Origin: Liolophura sinensis
Taxonomy: Eukaryota; Mollusca; Polyplacophora; Chitonida; Chitonidae
Length of the DNA: 64,000 nucleotides
Assembly: GCF_032854445.1 (NCBI RefSeq)
Contig: NC_088307.1
Coordinates: 682,001 to 746,000, forward strand
Reading direction: 5' to 3'
Below the pieces are notes generated by a model. It was not told where the DNA came from, made no database searches, and worked only from the letters and a program-made list of their open reading frames with translations. The position numbers and the translations under genes are program-made. Each line of letters begins with the position of its first letter. Position 1 is the stretch's first letter. Positions 20,101 through 59,786 of the stretch are shown piece after piece.

Positions 20101-23100
20101 GGCAATGTCAGACGGACTTACAGGATTTGAGTTTCCCCAGACTGACCAGGCGCAGCGTTCGAAACCGGAATAGGCGCCATATTTGGCGACTGGCCGCCCT
20201 TCTCCGATGGGTGTGGCCTATCCGTGACATAGGACATCAAGAAATCTTCCTCCCCAAACACATCGCGGTCAAATGGACAAATTCCTGTGCACCGGAATGC
20301 CGACTTTATGTTTGTTGGCGTTGCAGCTCTGTCCCATGCTGTTGCCACAAGAGGCGGTAAGTCGTAAATGGACAGAGTCTGGCCCGGGTGGCTGAGCATC
20401 CAGCTGTCGGCTGCTTGGTTGTAGAATGTTTTTAAAGGGACCAAAAACACAGCGATCTAAGGGCTGTAGCTTATTCGATGTGTGAGGCGGCAGGGTTAAG
20501 ATAACGACGCCGTTTTCTTTGGCATAATTGAGACCATCAACAGACAGGTGTGAATCGTGGTTATCCAGAATGAGGAGAATTTTCTTGTCTTGAGTGGATC
20601 TGGTGTGTTGGACAAGATGTTTCAGCACTAGTAAGAAATTCTCACTTGTCATCCACCCTGACTTATGGACAAGACCAAGGGCACCAGCCGGAGCTCCAGA
20701 CATCATGCGGGCAGCGTCCATGCGAACCCTGGGGAAGACGAAGGCTGGGGGTAGGGCATTTCCATTTGCGCAAATAATTCCCGCCACTGTCACAAGTTCT
20801 CCCCGTTCTCGAGATGTTGCTTGACCCACCTGATGAGCACCTTTATGAGCGATGACTTTTGGAACACGCTGCACTGTTGTGCACCCAGTCTCGTCCAGAT
20901 TGAATATTTCTGATTCATTGAAATTGTAGCGTTGAATGACTTCCGCAAGTTTATCTTGAAACACCTTTAGGTTTGTCCGGTTAAAACTTGTCATGCGCGC
21001 TAGGCTGGTCGCTTCAGGGCTACGGATACTAAGACTTTTGTTTCTGTGAAGAAAACCGGTTAACCAGTCTTTGCCAGCCATTTTGTTTGTTGCCCAGGTT
21101 TCAGGTGTTCTGATGTCATTCTGTCTTGCGTATTCATAAGCTAGCCTGCGCAAGGCCTTGGGTGTTAAGCCGTAGTACATGGCAGAGGATTCAATAAATA
21201 CTCCGTTAGTTGTTGTTCCATTTCCTGAGAAAACACCTGCCTGGTATTGAACTCGCCAACCTTGAACAGGAAACCTTTTCGAGCTTTGTCCACATAATCT
21301 TTCAACGTTGATTTTTTGACATTATGTAAATCTGCAGACTTTCGCAATGACAGATTGCCGTCAAGCACATCTTTTACAGCTCTCTCCATATCTACCGGCT
21401 TCACAACTCTCTCAGTTTTCCGTTTATACGTTCTAGGCATCCTGAGAGGCGTCTTATAGAAATTCTGCAAAACAAAAACATGAGTTGTAGGGATGGTTCG
21501 GGCGCATGGGGAAGATTCGGACAGCTGTCCGAAGTATCCCCGCATGTTATTGAAGGAATAAAAATGGTCGAGTGGGAAATTTCCGCAGGACAGGGATACA
21601 GTTCTACACCTAAATCATGTCGCATGGGCACAGCTTTCAGGGGGTATGGTAGGTTTGTTGAACATCTAAACTTAACCCGTGCATACAGTTACAACGCACC
21701 GACGAAAATATACATCAGAAACGGGGAAAAATTAAAGTTTCCATACCTGTAGAAGTCGAAGACCTGTCAAAACTCCCCATGTGACTGCTGTTGTTGTTTT
21801 AACACTTGGAAACTATCTAACCAATCATAGATGTCGTGACAAGCATTGTTTGGCAAAAATGTGCAGTGTCCGAACTATCCCGCTGTACGAACCATCCCCG
21901 CTCTCCCCTACCAGCCAATAACGAGTGTTGAAAACTATATTGTACGATGGGTGTTTGTCCAAATCTGTGCTTGAGATTTAGTAAAGAATAGTTAAATAAT
22001 TTTATGTGAACTGTACCATATATCCAGACTTGGCATTTGGGGTGTAACCGAGACTGTCATGCAGGTGTTGAGGATTCCAAGTGATCAGGGTCTGTTTCCC
22101 CTTGATAAAAAGTTTTAATTGTCATATATAACCAGCATCTACTCTCACCAGTCTTGGTGAAACAAAATGTGCATATTTCTTTATGTCACAGTAGGCAATC
22201 CTTCATTCACAAACATAATTAAGTCTACCAGCGGGCGTACAGATGATTACGGAAAGCTGTTTAAAAATTTCCGCAGGATACATACAAGCTATCGACTTCA
22301 GCTTTTGTCTGAATTCTCAAATATTGTTTTAATCATGCGTTTTGTGTTTATTTTCTGCTTATAAAATTTGTAAAGTAAATACCACTTTTTCAGTCTCATG
22401 TAATCCATATATATTGTATACTGTTTGTGTCACTATCGTTCAACTGAAACGCTTGTCAAGAAGAGAGGAGAGTTCAATCCAAGTCTGAGGCGAGGCTTCC
22501 AATGGATGGGAGAAGGGGTGACGCAATTCTACATTTACTGTAGACATTTTTAGGACAGGCAGTCATGATATACCGGGCATTAAGGGATAACTTCCAGAAC
22601 CTCATATCTAACAGGGTTGTAAGTGCCACATGAAATATACGTGGTTTGTCTGTGATGGATGACAGGTGTACTTACATTTTCCCTCAACAGATTTCATGCG
22701 GGTTCTGGTCGGGAATCTGGGGATCAGGAAATCACGCCTTTCATCTTTTCATTTAGGTCGAACAGTTCGAACTTTGTTGCCAACTGAGTGAACATTGTTT
22801 GTACTTTCTATCACACTGCTTATAGCCTTCCCCGGGATTAAACACACTCCACCCGAACCACTGACTGATGAACTCTCCCTGCATAGTTTGATAACAGTAG
22901 ACTTTGAAGTCATTATGACAAAAGTATACACAATACAAAAATGCAAATACTCCTGTAAATAATTTAGGAACTATCTTTCTTGACTTAGTCCATATGTTTT
23001 GTGAAGTAGTTTGTAAAGTTAAATAATATTTGGTGAATTGATACCCTCCTGATGATCCGCGTTTGTCAACTATTGGTTGGACACTCGCTCGCGTCCAAAT

Positions 23101-26100
23101 ATGAACGATGATATCGTCAATCCCACTAACCTTGAGGTCAGCAAAGGCCGTTTTAGGGCTTGGCCAGTATAACAATACACAATGGCATACACAGGGAGAT
23201 AACTCTTATCTAGCACAAATATGGGCGCACATTTATAGACTCTGCCCACATAGGCCTATGGAGACAAGCGGTAGGGGACACGCCGGATGGAGAGTTACCT
23301 TTAACTCATGCCACATAACAACCGACTCATTGGATACATAGCATTTTGTTCAACCAAATAACTAGAAGGTGAGAAAGGTAACGAGAAACAAAACGAAAAC
23401 TGATTCTTATACCGATTTGGTATTTAATTTACTACGTTATCAACGTGTCATGTAGAAAAGATTTACTCGGTTAATACAACTGGACGGTATCCTGACAGTT
23501 CTGATCAGTGAAGCGTGTCGTTGTAGTAGTTGACTTTTCCTGCTGTGCTATCGGGACTACTTTCTCTAGGCTTGCTCTCTCTTCGGCAGCTTCCAATAAT
23601 AGGACCCAAGGGAAAAAACTCGACGCCCATCGTTCGTTTCGTTTCTTTTAACCGAACCCAAACCAATCAATTTATGGGGACGGTCCCTTAAATGTAGTTT
23701 AGAACGCCATAGCCAAAATGTGGTGTAGAAGATAATGGCTTAGAACTAGACTACAAAATAATAACTTAAGCGTAGCACAAAGCATTATAATAGTTTAAAT
23801 GCGGTTTAGAACACCGTGGCCTAAATGTGGTGTGGAACGCATAATGTAACACAAAACACCATAATAGCTCAAATGCAGAGTAAAACACCGTGGCCCAGAA
23901 TGTGGTGCAGAAGATAATGGCTTACAAGCTGCATAGAAAAAAAACCTTAAATGTAGCACAGAACACCATGATAGCTTAAATGCAACAAAGAACACCGTGG
24001 CCTAAATGTGGCAAAGAACAGCAACGTTTGAATGTTTTGCTCGAACCAAACATAGCATACCACTGCTGAAATTTAGCACAGCGCGCCATAGTGTAAATGT
24101 AATATATATGTTCACATGACTTAAATCTCGTGTAGAAAATCATAACTTATATGCCTCATAGACGTGACTTATATGTCGTGTAGAACACTGTGACTTACGT
24201 GTCGTATAGAACACTTTTGACTTACATATCCTTTAGAATACTATGACTTGCATGTCCTTCAGAACACTATGACGTACGTGTCGAACAGAACACTATCAGT
24301 TACATGTGACTGATATTTATTACAGAGCACTGTGACTTAAATGTCGTATAGATCACTATCACTTACATGTCGTAGAGAACACTAAGGCATATGTCGTACA
24401 GAGCACTATGACTTAGATGTCCTTTAGAACACTATGACTTAAATGTCGTATAGAACACTGACTTACATGTCGTGTAGAACACTATCACCTACATGTCGAA
24501 TAGATCACTATGACATATGCCGTATAGAGCACTATGACTTAAATATCGTACATAACACTATGACTTAGGTGTCGTATAGAACACTATGGCTTACATGTCG
24601 AGTAGAACACTATGACTTAAATGTAGTATAGAACATTATAACTTATATGATGTATAGAGCACTATGACTTCTGTGTTGTGTAAAACACTATGACTTATTC
24701 TCGGGTAGATTAATATGACTGATATGTCGTGTAGAACACCATGACTTGAAGGTCGTATAGAACACTATAACCTTTATGTCTTATAGAAGACTAATGCTTA
24801 AATATAGCATATAATACCATGGTTTAAATGTAGCATAAAATACTATAGCTTAAATTACGGTTTAAAATCAAGTAACAAAAATGTAAGAAAAACAGTTAAT
24901 GAAATGTTGCGAATGTCTTTTCCAGAAAGTGTTTATATATTTGTTCCACTTATGTATAAATAGTTAGGCGCTGTACAGGGATGGGTTCTATGGGACAGAA
25001 ACACGTCATTTACACTGGTCAACAGGGCCGTGGAACGTCACAGCATTGAAAAACCAAATCGTCAGTTAGGTGACACTGATATATAATATAACAAAGTCAA
25101 CTAAGTTTGCAGAGGGTCTACGTTTTAGAGAACACCATTTATCGGGAGTATTCTAACATACCGTGAAGCGTGCTGGGCAAGAGGCCGACTTCCTCTTTAT
25201 TGTCCCCTCAAATCCTACCTATGCTTAGCTATTGCCATTTGGTGTAATAACACATACATTATTCATTCTAAAGTTGACGAATGAGAGAACAATGGTTGTT
25301 CAGCATCTTGACAAATCATTAGTTTAAAACAAAATTGGAGAGCGTTTGTTTCTATGCCATTATCAACACACTGATAAACACACACATGTGATCAAAATCT
25401 TGAGATTAAGCAGACAATGTTCAGTGTAATATATTTAAGAGAAGTGATTGTTGATTTGTACGTCACAAATGAAAAAGAAGTCATAGTTCTTCCTCTACTT
25501 AAGTGGTTTTTTACTCCACAAATGACTTCTGATCTATCAACGAAATATTCTGGATTACGGCACAAAGCTCAACGGAATAAATAAAGACGCTGTCGCAAAG
25601 CTCAACGGAATAAATAAAAGACGCTGTCTGAAGGTATCCAGGAACATGTCATGTTGGAGGAATGTGTCTGAGTTATGAAAATGGGTAGGTGTATATAATA
25701 ACATATATTTATTGATTTCCAAATATTGTTTTACGCAGTGCTCAGGAATATTTCACTTAAAAAAGTGGGTGTTATGGTGGGAGAAAACCGGGCAGAGCCT
25801 GGGGGAAACCCGTTACTATCTAGAGGTTACTGGTAGACTTTCCTACCAGAGAATAAGCCAGTCTGAGCTGTATTTAAACTGACTGCGACCGTAATGGTGA
25901 GGGACTACTGGGTTATTGTGCTGCGCTTGCACGCTAGCCACAAGTAAACGGAGGCCCGTATATAAAGATAGTTATATTGTCTTGTAAACAATATTGCCAG
26001 TCCGCTTGTGATTGCTTTCTGTATTTCCTTCAGGATTTTGAAGCCATAACCCATCGTGGTCACGTGTTGGTCGGAGATCTCATATCGGAGTTGTTCCCAT

Positions 26101-29100
26101 CCAATCGGGAGGATGTTTACATCTTGGACATAGCAGCAGGCACTGGACGAGTCGGCCAAGCCGTGAGTGACGATTGGATGAAAATTACTCACAGAAATCC
26201 ATAGATTTTAGTCATACTTCCTTGTAGACTGTACTGGTTAGTCTTTCGTATAAACTAGGGAACACTCGACATGGTTTCTGTAGGTAATAGGATAAACTTT
26301 GTAGTTTTCTTTGATAAACAGAATTTTGTGACTTTCACCGTAAAAGAGTCACTACTCACAAGCGTACATTTACTGCAGACGACTCGGTTTCTATCGCTAT
26401 TGTCTATTTCTTATAGAGAGTCGCCTATTTTCAGCTGCCTGTAAAATAATACCCGCTACCACAATTGTCTTTAGTCAGTGACACGAAACAACATCAGATC
26501 TACAGATTGATATGTTTGAAGTTCACATTATTGCACGGAAAATGACGTTAGAAGACTTTTTCTAATTCATAATGTTACAGTCCATAAGCCCCGTTTCTAC
26601 GGCAAGAACCCATTGCATCGAGGGACGTGATAATTATTCAAAAACCAGTGGCATGCTGGATATTGGGCGGAGTTCATCATGTTTTGATGGACGGACACAT
26701 CTGTTTCCTAAACGGCTATCGATCTTACAGCAAACCCTGTTTCTGCCTCTGCCATATTTGAAATTGTTCACACGTTTTAGTATAATATAACCTTAATAAA
26801 TGAATATAATTTTATCTTTTGTTGTATATTATCCCACGACAGTATTGTTTTAAAGATAGTTATTAGGAAATTTTGTTGTAAAACACAATGTATTTTATTC
26901 GCTGAGAGTGTAGTGTAGGATGTGTCACTGCGTGGAGTGTGTTCTTACTGCATGTTGGTGCACCGACTGTAAAACAAATTACCCTCCAGGCCCATTCCCC
27001 ACCATGCCACCATGAGTGAGTGCTTGGCGTTTAACGTCGTAGTCAACATTTTTTCAGTCATATGACGACGAAGGAATCCTTAGGGTGCATGTACGTGTAA
27101 TGTGCCTCCTTGTTGCAGGACGGATTTCCACCGCTCTTTTATTTAGTGCTGCTTCACTGAGACGACTTACCGAAGGCAAGTAATCCGCCCCGCCCGAGCC
27201 ATTATACTGATACGGGTCAACCAGCCGTTGCACTATCCCCTTCATGCTGATTGCCAAGCGAGGAAGTTACAACTTCCTCCTTTACAGTCTTAGGTGTGAC
27301 TCGATCAAGGATTGATCCTGGATCTACCGGTCCCGAAGCGTCCCAACTGTGCTATCCTGGCCGGTGACTAAGTTTGACGACTAAATATAGGCGAATCTCT
27401 GAAAGAAATAGACTATAGACAGGTCAAACTTTGTAAGCGTTCACGATGACCAGAATTCAGAATCTAGAGACATTATTTTGTGACTACACTGTAAAACTTT
27501 GTGAACATTCATGATGACCAGAATTCAGAATCTAGAGACATTATTTTGTGACTACACTGTAAAACTTTGTGAACATTCATGATGACCAGAATTCAAAATC
27601 TAGAGAGATTATTCTTTGACTACACTGTAAAACTTTGTGAACATTCATGATGACCAGAATTCAGAATCTAGAGACATTATTTTGTGACTACACTGTAAAA
27701 CTTTGTGAACATTCATGATGACCAGAATTCAAAATCCAGAGAGATTATTCTTTGACTACACTGTAAAACTTTGTAAACATTCATGATGACCAGAATTCAG
27801 AATCTAGAGACATACTATTGTGACTACACTGTAGAACTTTTACCCAACAACGTGTGTCGTTTTGCCGTTCACGTAAACACATGGTTCACATCTCTACTGA
27901 GATAATACACATTTTAAATTTTACGCTGAACGCTGCTGGGCAGTAAGGTGCGACTCGAAAAAGGATGGAAAAGATAGTTAGGTGCCTGCCGAAGGCCGGT
28001 GGCTTTTTCCAGGTACCGGTGTCTCCTTCTCGCATAAACCTGACCGCGAAAAAGTACGACATTAGAAACCAATCACGTGGAATGGTCGGTGGATGGTCAG
28101 GGGTTTCCCACGGGCTCTGCCCTGTTTCTTCGCAACATAATGGTGGTAACTTCCGTCGTATGTGAAATAGAGCCCGACGTTAAACACCAAATAAATAAAT
28201 AAATAAACCAATCAAATGTTTAAACAAACAAAATGGATACAGATATTGTAATGGTATCTTGTCCTTCCAGCTAACTGATCGAGGATTTCGGCGGATTGAT
28301 GCGCTCGACCCTTGTTTGCCCATGCTGGAAGAGGCCAAGAAGAAAAACGTCTACCAGCGCTACATTAACGATCGAGTGAGCGGAGATCCGCTAGACATTC
28401 CCGAAGGTAAACATCTGGAATTTACCTGTTTAATCGTATGAATAGACATTTAAGTTTGACACCGGTGTTTTGTACCTGGTACTGACGAATATTTCACGTG
28501 TATGACGGCTGCCATGTATGCGGATTATAGAAGCTCCTGGACCACAACAGATGCCTGGGCTGATATCGTTGGTTCACTTGGCTATCTGTCAGCTGACGTG
28601 GTTGGTCCGCTTGGCTGTCTGTTCGCTGATATCGTTGTTTCCCTTAGCTGCCTGCCGACTGTTGTCGTTTGTCTACTTGCGTATCAACATGTGTTTCCGC
28701 ACTTTTCAGTGCAAACAACTAGATATGCTATTTTCGTCCCTTAATCCAACTTTATCTCTGATATCTAAATTCCTAGGCGAGTCTTGTTCATTTACGTTTA
28801 AAATTTTGGCTTAAATGCGGACGGCAAAATGGCGTAACTTCGACTTAATTTACTGAGTTTCTAATATTTCCTGAGTACAAATGAAGCAAAAGCCGTTGAC
28901 TTTCGCCACTGTGACCTGCAACCAAATAATTATGTCACTTGTCATGTTTATTATATAGTAACAAAGTATAGCTGACTGTTGTATCTGAAGAGGATACTTT
29001 GTGTTCAGGAGTTCAGATAAGTTAGATTGTATAGTTGTATTGGTCAAGGCGGACCGTGATGAGAGCCATCTTATGCTGCCTATTCTCAGTTTGGACTTCA

Positions 29101-36730: not shown

Positions 36731-36972
36731 GGCTCAGTTGGTTCACGAAATGACCCAGGAACCTCACACCAACGCGGTAGCTGTGAGATCAAGTGCAGCT
36801 CATGCTGGCATCCTCTCCGGCCGTACGTGGGAAGGTCTTCCAGCAACCTGCGGATGGTCGTTGGTTTCCCCCGGGCCCTGCCAGGTTTTCTCCACCATAA
36901 TGCCCTCCGCCGTAGTGTAAGAGAAATATTCTTGAGTACGGCGAAAAACACCAATCAAATAAATAAATGAAT
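36731..36972 (+). mobile_element. Main-family SINE, 5'-truncated head, with TSD
   Basis: Begins at TGGCTCAGTTGG and runs to GAGTACGGCGAAAAACACCA and (AAAT)n. The 10-bp duplication AAAACGCCTG flanks it at 36721-36730 and 36973-36982, so insertion was already head-truncated. Confidence 0.92.
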
Positions 36973-37179
36973 AAAACGCCTGAGTGCAAATATAACATAC
37001 AGGCTAGAGTATTCGTAAGACTGAAGTCACCCTCACCCATTTTGTTTAACAGTCCACAAAAGACCTAAGACCCGCGCGATGGACTACACTAATACTAGGA
37101 AGTCGTTTAGAAATCACTAGCGTGGTTTGCATTCAGGTGTTATCTCCCCTTTTCCTAATATGCGGACCCGGTAATTTAA

Positions 37180-37621: not shown

Positions 37622-37794
37622 AGCTGGCTTCCTCTCCGGACGTACGTGGGAAGGCCTGTCAGCAACCTGCGGATGGTCGTGGGATTCCCCCGGGCTCTGC
37701 CCCGTTTCCACCCACCATAATGCTGGCCGCCGTCGTATAATTGAAATATTCTTGAGTACGGCGTAAAACACCAATCAAATAAATAAATAAATAA
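37622..37794 (+). mobile_element. Main-family SINE, head-less, with 11-bp TSD
   Basis: Starts at GAGCTGGCTTCCTCTCCGG, ends TTGAGTACGGCGTAAAACAC and (AAAT)n. ATATACAGTAG flanks it at 37611-37621 and 37795-37805. Its sequence is close to consensus, so it is young. Confidence 0.92.
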
Positions 37795-37979: not shown

Positions 37980-38042
37980 AAATTTATTTATTTATTTGAT
38001 TGGAGTTTTACGCCGTTCTCCAGAATGTTTCATTTATATTTC
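37980..38042 (-). mobile_element. Main-family SINE tail fragment
   Basis: TTTATTTATTTGATTGGAGT, TTTACGCCGTTCTCCAGAAT. Only the 3' end remains. Confidence 0.75.
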
Positions 38043-38119: not shown

Positions 38120-38125
38120 TTTATT
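38120..38125 (-). terminator. Candidate poly(A) signal AATAAA downstream of dapF
   Basis: AATAAA on the minus strand, 112 nt after the dapF stop codon. It is consistent with eukaryotic transcript processing, but such a hexamer is expected by chance in AT-rich DNA. Confidence 0.4.
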
Positions 38126-38236: not shown

Positions 38237-39067
38237 TTAAGTGCTATGGATTATAACACCGTCGAAGACGTGGCACACAGGCCCCATAAGTCTAACATTA
38301 TAAAAAACACACCCGTCGTCAGTCGCAAAGCTGACTTCTGCCGAACCGCCACTACAGGAAATGACATCACTGAACGTTCCGTGCGCTGTAGTTCCGTGTC
38401 GTCTTTTATGAAGAACTAGGGCAACAGCTGTGATGCCGGTGCCGCAGGCTAGCGTCTCATTCTCCACGCCGCGCTCGTAAGTCCGCACAAACCCCCCAGC
38501 GTCTGTCTCCTGCACAAAGTTCACGTTACAGCCTTTGGCTCTGTACAGCTTCCCCCAAGCTATTTCTCTCCCCAATTGCCTGACATCACACTGTTTTACG
38601 TTGGTGACGAAACGAACGTGGTGCGGTGAACCAGTGTTCACAAAGTAATCCCCATTTTCGTACTCTTTTATGCCGGTAACGTCATTCATTTCAAGTTCTA
38701 TGTAATTGTCACAACGACAGCGGCGTCCCTTATGAACGCCGTCGAACGCCTCGAAAACTAGACACCCGTCAATCAAAGGAACCCCTTTCCTAATTGCGAA
38801 CTCCACAAAACAACGTCCCCCGTTACCACAAAATGACCCCTCCTCTCCATCTGCATTGAAATAAACCAGCCTCACCTCGCAGCCAGCTGTTGCTGAGCAA
38901 CTTTGCTTCATTTCCAAAATTCCGTCCGCACCTATTCCAGTTTTTCGACAGCAAAACGCTCTGCGCATGTAAGGTGACCTCATGACGTCGTCATAGCAAC
39001 CGTTTCGATTGTCGACGATGATAAAATCGTTGCCGAGTCCATGGTATTTGGCAAATTCTACTTTCAT
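38237..39067 (-). CDS. dapF: Diaminopimelate epimerase, bacterial type, intronless
   Basis: The 276-aa protein starts at the ATG at 39067, exactly where DapF proteins begin (MKVEFAKYHGLGNDF). The frame stays open upstream to an ATG at 39184, which would add 39 unrelated residues. DapF interconverts LL- and meso-diaminopimelate in bacterial lysine and peptidoglycan synthesis. Visible family motifs: GNDF at 12-15; YFNADGEEGSFCGNGGRC at 69-86 with catalytic Cys80; NTGSPHHV at 144-151; YERGVENETLACGTG at 197-211 with catalytic Cys208; GPVCHVFDG near the end. Length is normal and nothing is missing, so the enzyme looks functional. GGRC (not GARC) and the NTGSPHHV form remind me of Bacteroidota versions. 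It is unusually cysteine-rich (about 16). Animals are not known to make lysine this way. SINE copies on both sides (37,622 and 39,978) argue against bacterial contamination, so I infer horizontal transfer. Lack of introns fits. Confidence 0.95.
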   Translation of the reverse strand: MKVEFAKYHGLGNDFIIVDNRNGCYDDVMRSPYMRRAFCCRKTGIGADGILEMKQSCSATAGCEVRLVYFNADGEEGSFCGNGGRCFVEFAIRKGVPLIDGCLVFEAFDGVHKGRRCRCDNYIELEMNDVTGIKEYENGDYFVNTGSPHHVRFVTNVKQCDVRQLGREIAWGKLYRAKGCNVNFVQETDAGGFVRTYERGVENETLACGTGITAVALVLHKRRHGTTAHGTFSDVISCSGGSAEVSFATDDGCVFYNVRLMGPVCHVFDGVIIHST

Positions 39068-39179
39068 GGTAAACTTTACAGTGAAAGGGATACAACCGAC
39101 ATGCCGGAAGTCAAAATCTGTGTCCAATATTGCCCAAACTTTCAACAAAGTTTTCCAGATTTGTCCTTCCAGTGCACAC

Positions 39180-39445
39180 AACATGTACTAGGATGTATAA
39201 CACCGAAGTCATGCTTTCAGTGTAGATAGCTAGTCCTCCCAGTGCAGACAATATGTACTAGGATGTATAACACCGAAGTCATGTTCAGGGGGCTTTCAGT
39301 GTAGACAACGTCATCCCAGTGTACACGGCATGTACGAGGACATATTACACCGAAGTCACGTTCCGGGGCTTCCAGAGTAGTCAGCTAGTCCTCCCAGTGT
39401 ACACAGCTTGTTCAAGGACGGATTATACCGAAGTCATGTTCAAAT
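39180..39445. repeat. Tandem repeat of about 60-90 bp abutting the dapF 5' side (four units)
   Basis: AGTCCTCCCAGTG, ACAACATGTACTAGGATGTA and ACACCGAAGTCATGTTC recur four times with indels. The first, partial unit overlaps the 5' extension of the dapF open frame, so that extension probably comes from repeat DNA. Confidence 0.85.
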
Positions 39446-39977: not shown

Positions 39978-40142
39978 TTCTCCGGCCATACATGGGAAGG
40001 TCTGCAGCAACCTGCGGATGGTCGTGGATCTCCCTGTCATCTCCCTGGTTTTCTCCCACCATAATAGGCCTACTGGCTGCTGTCGTTCAAGTGAAATATT
40101 CTTGAGTACAGTGTAAACCACCAATCAAATAAATAAATAAAA
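39978..40142 (+). mobile_element. Main-family SINE, head-less
   Basis: TCTCCGGCCATACATGGGAA, AACCTGCGGATGGTCGTGG, TTCTTGAGTACAGTGTAAAC, (AAAT)n. Confidence 0.88.
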
Positions 40143-40540
40143 ATTTTACTGATATGACGACTGTTGTATTTATGATTGGAAGAAGCCAAAATGTTAGGAA
40201 AAAACACAAACTTTTGGGGAGAAAACCTCGAACTTTGCCTGACGGAACTGATCCTGTATGCCAGACTGGTGGAATGAATAAATAAATGAATTGTGCAGGC
40301 ATATCGTGGCGAGAACAGGTTTAAAAACAGGAGCCAGTGAATGGTGTGTGACACAATGTAGCCATACTGGTGAAAGTCAAGTGATAAGGAACAAACTTCA
40401 TGATAGAGCACATAAAAAAACCGTGCAACCTTTCTTGATCTTCAGTTCGCGAAAACAACTGAAATCAAATTAGGCAATATAAATGTCGGAGACAACCCTG
40501 AAAAGATTAAGGGGTATTACCCCTGAACGAGAATGAGAGA
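40143..40540. other. No gene seen
   Basis: Unique sequence between SINEs; short frames without domains. Confidence 0.5.
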
Positions 40541-40795
40541 TTTATTTCCTTATTTGATTGGTGTTTTACGCCGTACTCAAAAATATTTCACTTACACGAC
40601 GGCCAGCATTATTGTGGGAGGAAACCTGGCAGAGCCCGGAGGAAACCCACAACCATTCGCAGGTCACTGAAGGCCTACCCACGTACAGCCGGAGAGGAAG
40701 CCAGCTTGAGCTGGACTTGATCTCACAGCGACCGCATTGATACTAGGCTCCTGTGTCATTACGCTGCGCTAGCGCGCTAACCAACTGAGCCACTG
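40541..40795 (-). mobile_element. Full-length main-family SINE
   Basis: TTTACGCCGTACTCAAAAAT tail, CCAGCTTGAGCTGGACTTGA (box-B side), TGCGCTAGCGCGCTAACCAA and CTGAGCCACTG at the head. The very end (GGAGGCCCC) is missing. Confidence 0.92.

Positions 40796-42692: not shown

Positions 42693-59786
<17,094 letters not shown>

Follow-up and report, generated by a model that had tools for sequence, protein, structure and literature searches.

A bacterial-type dapF gene in a chiton genome, with gastropod relatives, pocket-changed paralogs and a lysA partner

The window, by which is meant the whole 64-kb stretch of DNA analysed, corresponds to C13:682001-746000 on a 30.1-Mb scaffold of Liolophura, a chiton of the class Polyplacophora. 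The published assembly, whose species was first named L. japonica and then corrected to Liolophura sinensis (PMC12441733), is HiFi-based, was screened for contaminants and is accompanied by polyA RNA-seq from five tissues (PMC11068029). On the minus strand of the window, positions 38237..39067 hold a coding sequence for 276 amino acids plus a stop codon (TAA), identified as dapF by its open reading frame and by Pfam and TIGR00652 matches. The frame runs from an ATG at 39065-39067 to the stop codon at 38237-38239, uninterrupted and without an intron. An alternative in-frame start upstream would give 39 more residues; P0002 and most relatives start at or near the same point as the 276-aa form, whose start codon has an A at -3, and P0223, P0226 and P0273 start earlier. 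The GC content of dapF is 0.49 versus 0.42 in its surroundings, and the CpG observed/expected ratio 1.2 versus 0.78. An AATAAA motif on the same strand, 112 nt past the stop (38120..38125), is a possible polyadenylation signal; such motifs arise commonly by chance in DNA of this kind, and on its own it is weak evidence.

The predicted protein reached 155.9 bits with the DapF equivalog TIGR00652, above the curated cut-off of 114.65, and 101.9 bits with Pfam PF01678. In the alignment, Cys73 and Cys217 of the E. coli enzyme correspond to Cys80 and Cys208 of the window protein, one in each half; their codons, computed from the frame, lie on the minus strand at 38828..38830 (motif CGNGGRC) and 38444..38446 (motif ACGTG). 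The claim of the preliminary description that a complete, intronless dapF of 276 residues with both catalytic cysteines is present was therefore borne out by the frame, the TIGR00652 score and the alignment. Structure prediction yielded a confident model, with a pLDDT of 90.7 and a pTM of 0.88.

Fifteen catalytic or contact positions were compared, the DAP contacts being those of solved DapF structures. At every one of them the window protein carries the letter found throughout a sample of 27 bacterial relatives, of which 26 are Bacteroidota by title or classification and one is 'bacterium A37T11'. E. coli DapF departs from the window protein and these relatives at three of the positions (Gln44, Asn157 and Ser219). 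The O-ureidoserine racemase DcsC (chain of 7vdy) has Thr and Tyr at the aligned positions of Asn64 and Arg209; the window protein lacks this mark of the DcsC type and has Asn71 and Arg199 there.

Repeat comparison placed SINE copies on either side of dapF, two of them with target duplications of 10-11 bp. On one side lie plus-strand copies at 36735..36973 (10-bp duplication 36720/36973) and 37623..37793 (11-bp duplication 37611/37795), with a minus-strand fragment at 37982..38031 between the latter copy and dapF. On the far side are a plus-strand copy at 39979..40141 with a possible 9-bp duplication (39943/40148) and a minus-strand copy at 40540..40763 without a target duplication found; beyond the three copies with a certain or possible duplication, two copies in all gave none. 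The assignment to the tRNA type is a reading of the sequence by eye, because ARAGORN found no tRNA within the 64-kb window. With one copy as query, 18 matches including itself were obtained between 4.3 and 61.3 kb of the window. The position of dapF between SINEs, one with an 11-bp target duplication, thus agrees with the preliminary description, whose label of 'young' for these elements is doubtful because the remaining copies are only about 70-92% identical to the query copy. A minisatellite of four copies of about 75 nt (39143..39442) lies just upstream of the dapF start codon.

Spliced animal neighbours had been claimed earlier. Two plus-strand exons of a methyltransferase gene, at 26034..26162 (AG acceptor, GTGAGT donor) and 28271..28406 (AG acceptor, GTAAAC donor), have canonical splice sites; joined, they clear the cut-offs of the Pfam families Methyltransf_25 and Methyltransf_11, in each case by less than one bit. 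Of two Death-domain frames, the one on the minus strand at 43566..44036 scored over the cut-off and is a probable host gene exon, whereas the second, at 44925-45314, reached 18.5 bits and fell below the cut-off of 22.6. Elsewhere in the window, remains of a DNA transposon with DDE_1 and Psq helix-turn-helix matches, presumably pogo-like, were seen at 20272-21614. Repetitive stretches at 1-645, 4.6-6.6 kb, 11-12.8 kb, 41.3-42.4 kb and 47.6-52.4 kb produce spurious long open reading frames and are minisatellites judging by their translations.

Relatives of the window protein were collected by several searches. Among the best 120 of 8000 scored proteins were P0002 (84% identity), P0003 (44%), a Haliotis asinina protein (44%) and bacterial proteins with identities no higher than 47%, most of the named ones from Bacteroidota; candidates for this search were pre-selected by shared words, and the lack of bivalves and cephalopods among the listed matches carries no weight. 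Profile searches added Haliotis rubra (two copies, probably on one scaffold), H. rufescens, Physella acuta, Lottia gigantea and further proteins, bringing the named gastropods with relatives to five (three Haliotis, Lottia and Physella). Aligned with the window protein, these gastropod sequences are 39-48% identical to it. In bacterial genomes, searched with patterns derived from the mollusc alignment, at least 567 loci matched, and the best 80 were all Bacteroidota by title with the exception of L002 ('bacterium A37T11'). The top long match among plasmid records was one Bacteroidota gene at 35.7%, the others among the matches listed being at 32% or less.

In a FastTree analysis of 322 proteins, 16 mollusc-type rows formed one clade with a support of 97. 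For IQ-TREE, 57 rows were picked by hand (25 of the 322 protein ids and 32 of 86 loci; P0254, a near copy of P0240, and L046 were left out, and L082, L083 and L086 included). All 15 mollusc-type rows (the window protein, six rows from the five named gastropods and eight further ones) again formed one clade, beside Bacteroidota DapF (95/84). When the distant outgroups were removed (52 rows), support for the mollusc clade was 98/93, and it was recovered in 98% of 200 bootstrap trees. Upon addition of six chiton paralogs (the near copies C12_21002, 21063, 21122 and 21176 being left out of this tree and included in the residue table), the 21 mollusc rows grouped together at 86/86 and support for the 15 rows dropped to 83/85. 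P0273 was the nearest row outside the mollusc clade; it and P0264, a second DapF protein branching beside the clade, are perhaps from protists.

A single clade beside Bacteroidota DapF suggests that the gain is older than the divergence of chitons from gastropods, which dates back about half a billion years, and one such old gain is our best reading of these trees. Related bacteria may instead have passed the gene to different molluscs on several occasions, the window gene being one such case; in favour of this, long branches separate the mollusc sub-groups in the 57-row tree. When the window pair was forced to join the bacteria, the sole alternative topology compared, the trees were 17.6 and 13.4 log units worse, and the AU test did not reject them (p-AU 0.202 and 0.285); because this placement is permitted, a single old transfer is not proven. 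Among 19 columns with a letter shared by molluscs and rare in bacteria, the window protein lacks the mollusc letter at 11, but it has it at eight, for example Gly114, His266 and Asp269. With these shared letters and the 98/93 clade against it, the reading by repeated transfer is judged rather improbable.

The gene is not confined to one species, having relatives in gastropods, and it occurs in several copies in the chiton. A search of the genome (609,464,459 bases in 632 contigs) gave 12 matches, two of which are pieces of the same gene, so that at least 11 genes are represented: besides the window copy, these are two genes on C13 at 23.16 Mb and eight diverged copies on C12 at 20.91-21.24 Mb (C12:20911374-21238212; L096-L102). 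Six C12 copies make up a tandem array, one per 54-61 kb, in which the flanks are 93-98% identical, and additional dapF fragments adjoin C12_20911. An open frame and both cysteines were found in nine of the 11 copies, the window copy included; C13b has one in-frame stop, and in C12_21002 the segment carrying the first of the catalytic cysteines is missing. The SINE of the window was also present near the paralogs at all three paralog loci checked (L095-L097).

These results bear on the origin of the sequence itself. A bacterial-type, intronless gene is what contamination or a chimeric assembly would leave, but dapF is flanked by SINEs on a 30-Mb scaffold of a screened assembly (PMC11068029), it has an 84% identical relative in P0002 as well as named gastropod relatives, and ten paralogs occur on two scaffolds with the same SINE near each of the three loci checked. 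Because of the flanking SINEs, the family of at least 11 copies and the relatives in Haliotis, Lottia and Physella, contamination was rejected as the source of the window gene; we regard it as very unlikely, with a probability close to negligible. The suspicion of a recent bacterial contaminant, for which a search of relatives and a tree had been proposed, is answered by the relatives and by the mollusc clade beside Bacteroidota. The demand for long reads that join dapF to its flanking SINEs is addressed indirectly, through the HiFi-based 30-Mb scaffold. The evidence supports the presence of an intact dapF of bacterial type in the genome of an animal, and its integration there is very likely.

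The substrate pocket was compared across the family at 16 catalytic and contact positions (E. coli numbering). Eleven of the 15 mollusc-type rows, the window protein among them, have the same letters as two Bacteroidota rows; P0226 and P0227 show a single departure (Ser for Thr219), P0122 a single one at Asp66, and P0218 departs at three positions. The positions of Asn64, Ser157, His159, Asn190 and Arg209 are kept in 14 of these 15 rows, the exception being P0218. In this second copy of Haliotis rubra, Asp replaces Asn64, Ala replaces Ser157 and Asp replaces Glu208, changes that parallel those of the chiton paralogs.

In the ten chiton paralogs, Asn11, Glu208 and Cys217 are kept in all and Cys73 in nine. 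Asp12 and His159 are lost in all ten, Arg209 in nine, and Asn64 in all nine paralogs with letters at that position; Asn190 is missing in seven of the ten, at a position where the alignment is uncertain. This pattern suggests that the paralogs may have kept the same chemistry while their substrates changed. When four of them were scanned with TIGR00652, three passed the DapF cut-off (132.7, 129.6 and 118.0 bits) and one failed (105.2 bits), so the family name alone would mislead, because three of four pocket-changed paralogs still pass.

The window enzyme might itself have abandoned DAP and, without PLP, racemise or epimerise some other amino acid or peptide in the animal. D-amino acids are common in molluscs, enzymes of the DapF fold that act on other substrates exist (O-ureidoserine racemase), the second H. 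rubra copy has altered residues, and all ten chiton paralogs have a changed pocket, nine with the cysteine pair. However, the window protein is among the 14 of 15 rows that keep the Asn64, Ser157, His159, Asn190 and Arg209 positions of Bacteroidota DapF, and a lysA gene is present in the same genome (see below). We consider another substrate unlikely for the window enzyme, though it is the most serious competitor to epimerisation of DAP. The 'new racemase role' proposed in the preliminary description would be a better fit for the diverged paralogs than for the window copy.

Constraint on the window protein was assessed from conserved columns. The window protein and P0002 differ at 41 of 259 compared sites, and all 41 lie outside the 68 columns whose conservation in other rows is at least 90% (p ~1e-6); in addition, 62 of the 67 columns invariant in the 27 bacterial relatives are kept. 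The sparing of conserved columns points to purifying selection on the window protein.

Nucleotide dN/dS values were obtained from the paralogs only, the dS of the window gene versus the paralogs being saturated. Among the older paralogs, dN/dS was 0.09-0.34: 0.09 between C13a and C13b, with dS saturated at 2.4, and 0.27-0.34 for C12_20911 and C12_20914 versus each other and versus the array copies. Four older pairs with dN/dS of 0.09-0.29 (the C13 pair and three C12 pairs) were bootstrapped, giving upper 97.5% limits of 0.15-0.43, and dN/dS reached 1 in none of the usable resamples (of 200 drawn per pair, 149 were usable for the C13 pair and all 200 for each of the three C12 pairs). The 15 pairs among the six near-identical array copies ranged from 0.19 to 1.09 and say little, because they contain very few changes. 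For the paralogs, then, dN/dS argues for purifying selection. The selection claimed earlier for dapF is supported in part by the conserved columns spared relative to P0002, and the dN/dS part of the argument applies to the paralogs only.

A profile search of the genome for LysA gave six matches, five of which are exons of one gene at C6:34558746-34564588 (L109), with GT or AG borders at the exon ends wherever these were read. Each single exon scored below the LysA cut-off, in a search that detected 13 of 14 controls, whereas the joined exons, with approximate ends, reached 360.9 bits and exceeded the cut-off of 297.9. The nearest solved relatives of the joined protein are two chloroplast diaminopimelate decarboxylases, at 376 bits (6n2a, from Arabidopsis) and 374 bits; the next solved relative scored 279 bits, and human ornithine decarboxylase 34 bits. 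DapF and LysA thus occur as a gene pair in one chiton genome.

No match to dapB was found in the profile search of the chiton genome (11 of 14 controls detected), nor to plant-type dapL (14 of 14 controls detected, two of them over the cut-off). As short exons can escape an exon-by-exon search, these absences are moderate evidence, and a fuller lysine pathway in the chiton is doubted at DapB and DapL only. The general statement in the preliminary description that animals lack the diaminopimelate pathway does not wholly apply to the chiton, because a spliced lysA is present.

DapF converts free LL-DAP to meso-DAP by cofactor-free epimerisation with two cysteines, and LysA converts meso-DAP to L-lysine. 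Algae and plants make LL-DAP, and bacterial walls contain DAP. The reading we prefer, to which we would give an even chance, is that a Bacteroidota-type dapF entered the mollusc lineage before the chiton-gastropod split and was retained as an intronless gene whose product may serve, with LysA, to make lysine from dietary DAP, the paralogs forming a family for other substrates. The window copy would be the conservative member, presumably expressed. Its residues predict an LL-diaminopimelate epimerase that needs no cofactor, with Cys80 and Cys208 placed on opposite faces of the substrate to remove and return the alpha proton. The meso-DAP so formed would be the substrate of the LysA encoded by the C6 gene, yielding L-lysine.

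With no match to DapB or plant-type DapL, DAP would have to be supplied from outside. The most likely sources would be algae, which offer free LL-DAP, and the bacteria of the grazed biofilm, whose walls release DAP on digestion; DapF would render the LL form usable by LysA. The DAP of bacterial peptidoglycan is mostly in the meso form already, for which DapF is unneeded, and the proposed role hence hinges on LL-DAP in the food. The duplicates with changed pocket residues would make up a separate family, probably of racemases or epimerases for other substrates.

Two other uses of the enzyme were weighed. Its substrates could be muropeptides or DAP-containing peptides, whether derived from food or from gut bacteria, and its role immune or digestive, not one in lysine supply. 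Animals sense DAP in peptidoglycan; the known DapF enzymes work on free DAP, however, and the lysA in the genome offers a simpler use. Aphids are reported to use an acquired peptidoglycan enzyme on the wall of their symbiont (PMC8689515). On balance a role on DAP peptides seems to us a minor possibility. Alternatively, the window gene might supply an intracellular symbiont that has no dapF, as in whiteflies, but relatives of the gene occur in abalone, limpet and pond snail, which are not known to have an obligate symbiont in common, and nothing in the sequences analysed hints at a symbiont. The dapF of the whitefly Bemisia is a working precedent for such service (PMC8659303); for the chiton gene it appears very improbable.

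If lysine is indeed made from dietary DAP, the consequences would be broader. The usual teaching is that animals cannot make lysine and must obtain it from the diet, and a free-living mollusc with DapF and LysA would partly escape this rule. Such an escape need not depend on a symbiont; DapF is common to abalone, limpet and pond snail. More tentatively, and with a probability clearly short of even, grazing molluscs may have kept the last two bacterial lysine steps for about half a billion years, turning DAP from algae and walls into lysine, and may have built a new PLP-free racemase family from the same fold. The diverged paralogs offer a natural series in which an acquired epimerase changes its substrate pocket and keeps its catalytic pair.

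Among known systems, Bacteroidota DapF (Chitinophaga, Flavobacteriaceae) resembles the window protein in identity (about 40-47%), in the 15 catalytic and contact positions and in length; the window protein differs in forming part of its own clade, in the mollusc-typical Gly114, His266 and Asp269 and in lying on an animal scaffold. The gastropod predictions named 'diaminopimelate epimerase-like' (Haliotis asinina, H. rubra, H. rufescens and Physella acuta) and Lottia LOTGIDRAFT_162386 belong to the same clade and have the same residues apart from P0218; as their automatic names stand in databases, these sequences are already public. In the choanoflagellate Salpingoeca rosetta, a dapF was reported as a transfer, together with lysAC candidates (PMC7971027). 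It is like the chiton gene in being a bacterial dapF, here in a relative of animals; the trees above were built without a Salpingoeca sequence.

For corals, a diaminopimelate decarboxylase is listed as a transfer from chlorophyll c-containing algae (PMC4878875). This resembles the chiton case in being an animal lysA of algal type, the chiton LysA being nearest to chloroplast enzymes among solved structures; corals belong to another phylum, and the paper mentions diaminopimelate once and names no dapF (PMC4878875).

In the open-licence literature searched, several listings of which gave the best 20 of more matches, no paper on a molluscan dapF was among the matches listed. A close parallel is Bemisia tabaci, in which an acquired dapF is reported to have rescued a dapF deletion of E. 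coli K-12 and an acquired lysA is present in the same animal (PMC8659303). As in the chiton, an intronless bacterial dapF accompanies lysA in one animal (PMC8659303). The Bemisia gene clusters with Pantoea and was probably gained after the split from Trialeurodes, and it is studied in a symbiont setting (PMC8659303). The chiton dapF, in contrast, lies near Bacteroidota DapF, is apparently old, is shared with gastropods and belongs to a family, and its lysA partner is spliced and plant-like. Not described in the literature searched are the presence of dapF in two mollusc classes, the growth of the family with a change of the pocket and the lysA partner; an acquired dapF together with lysA was already known from Bemisia.
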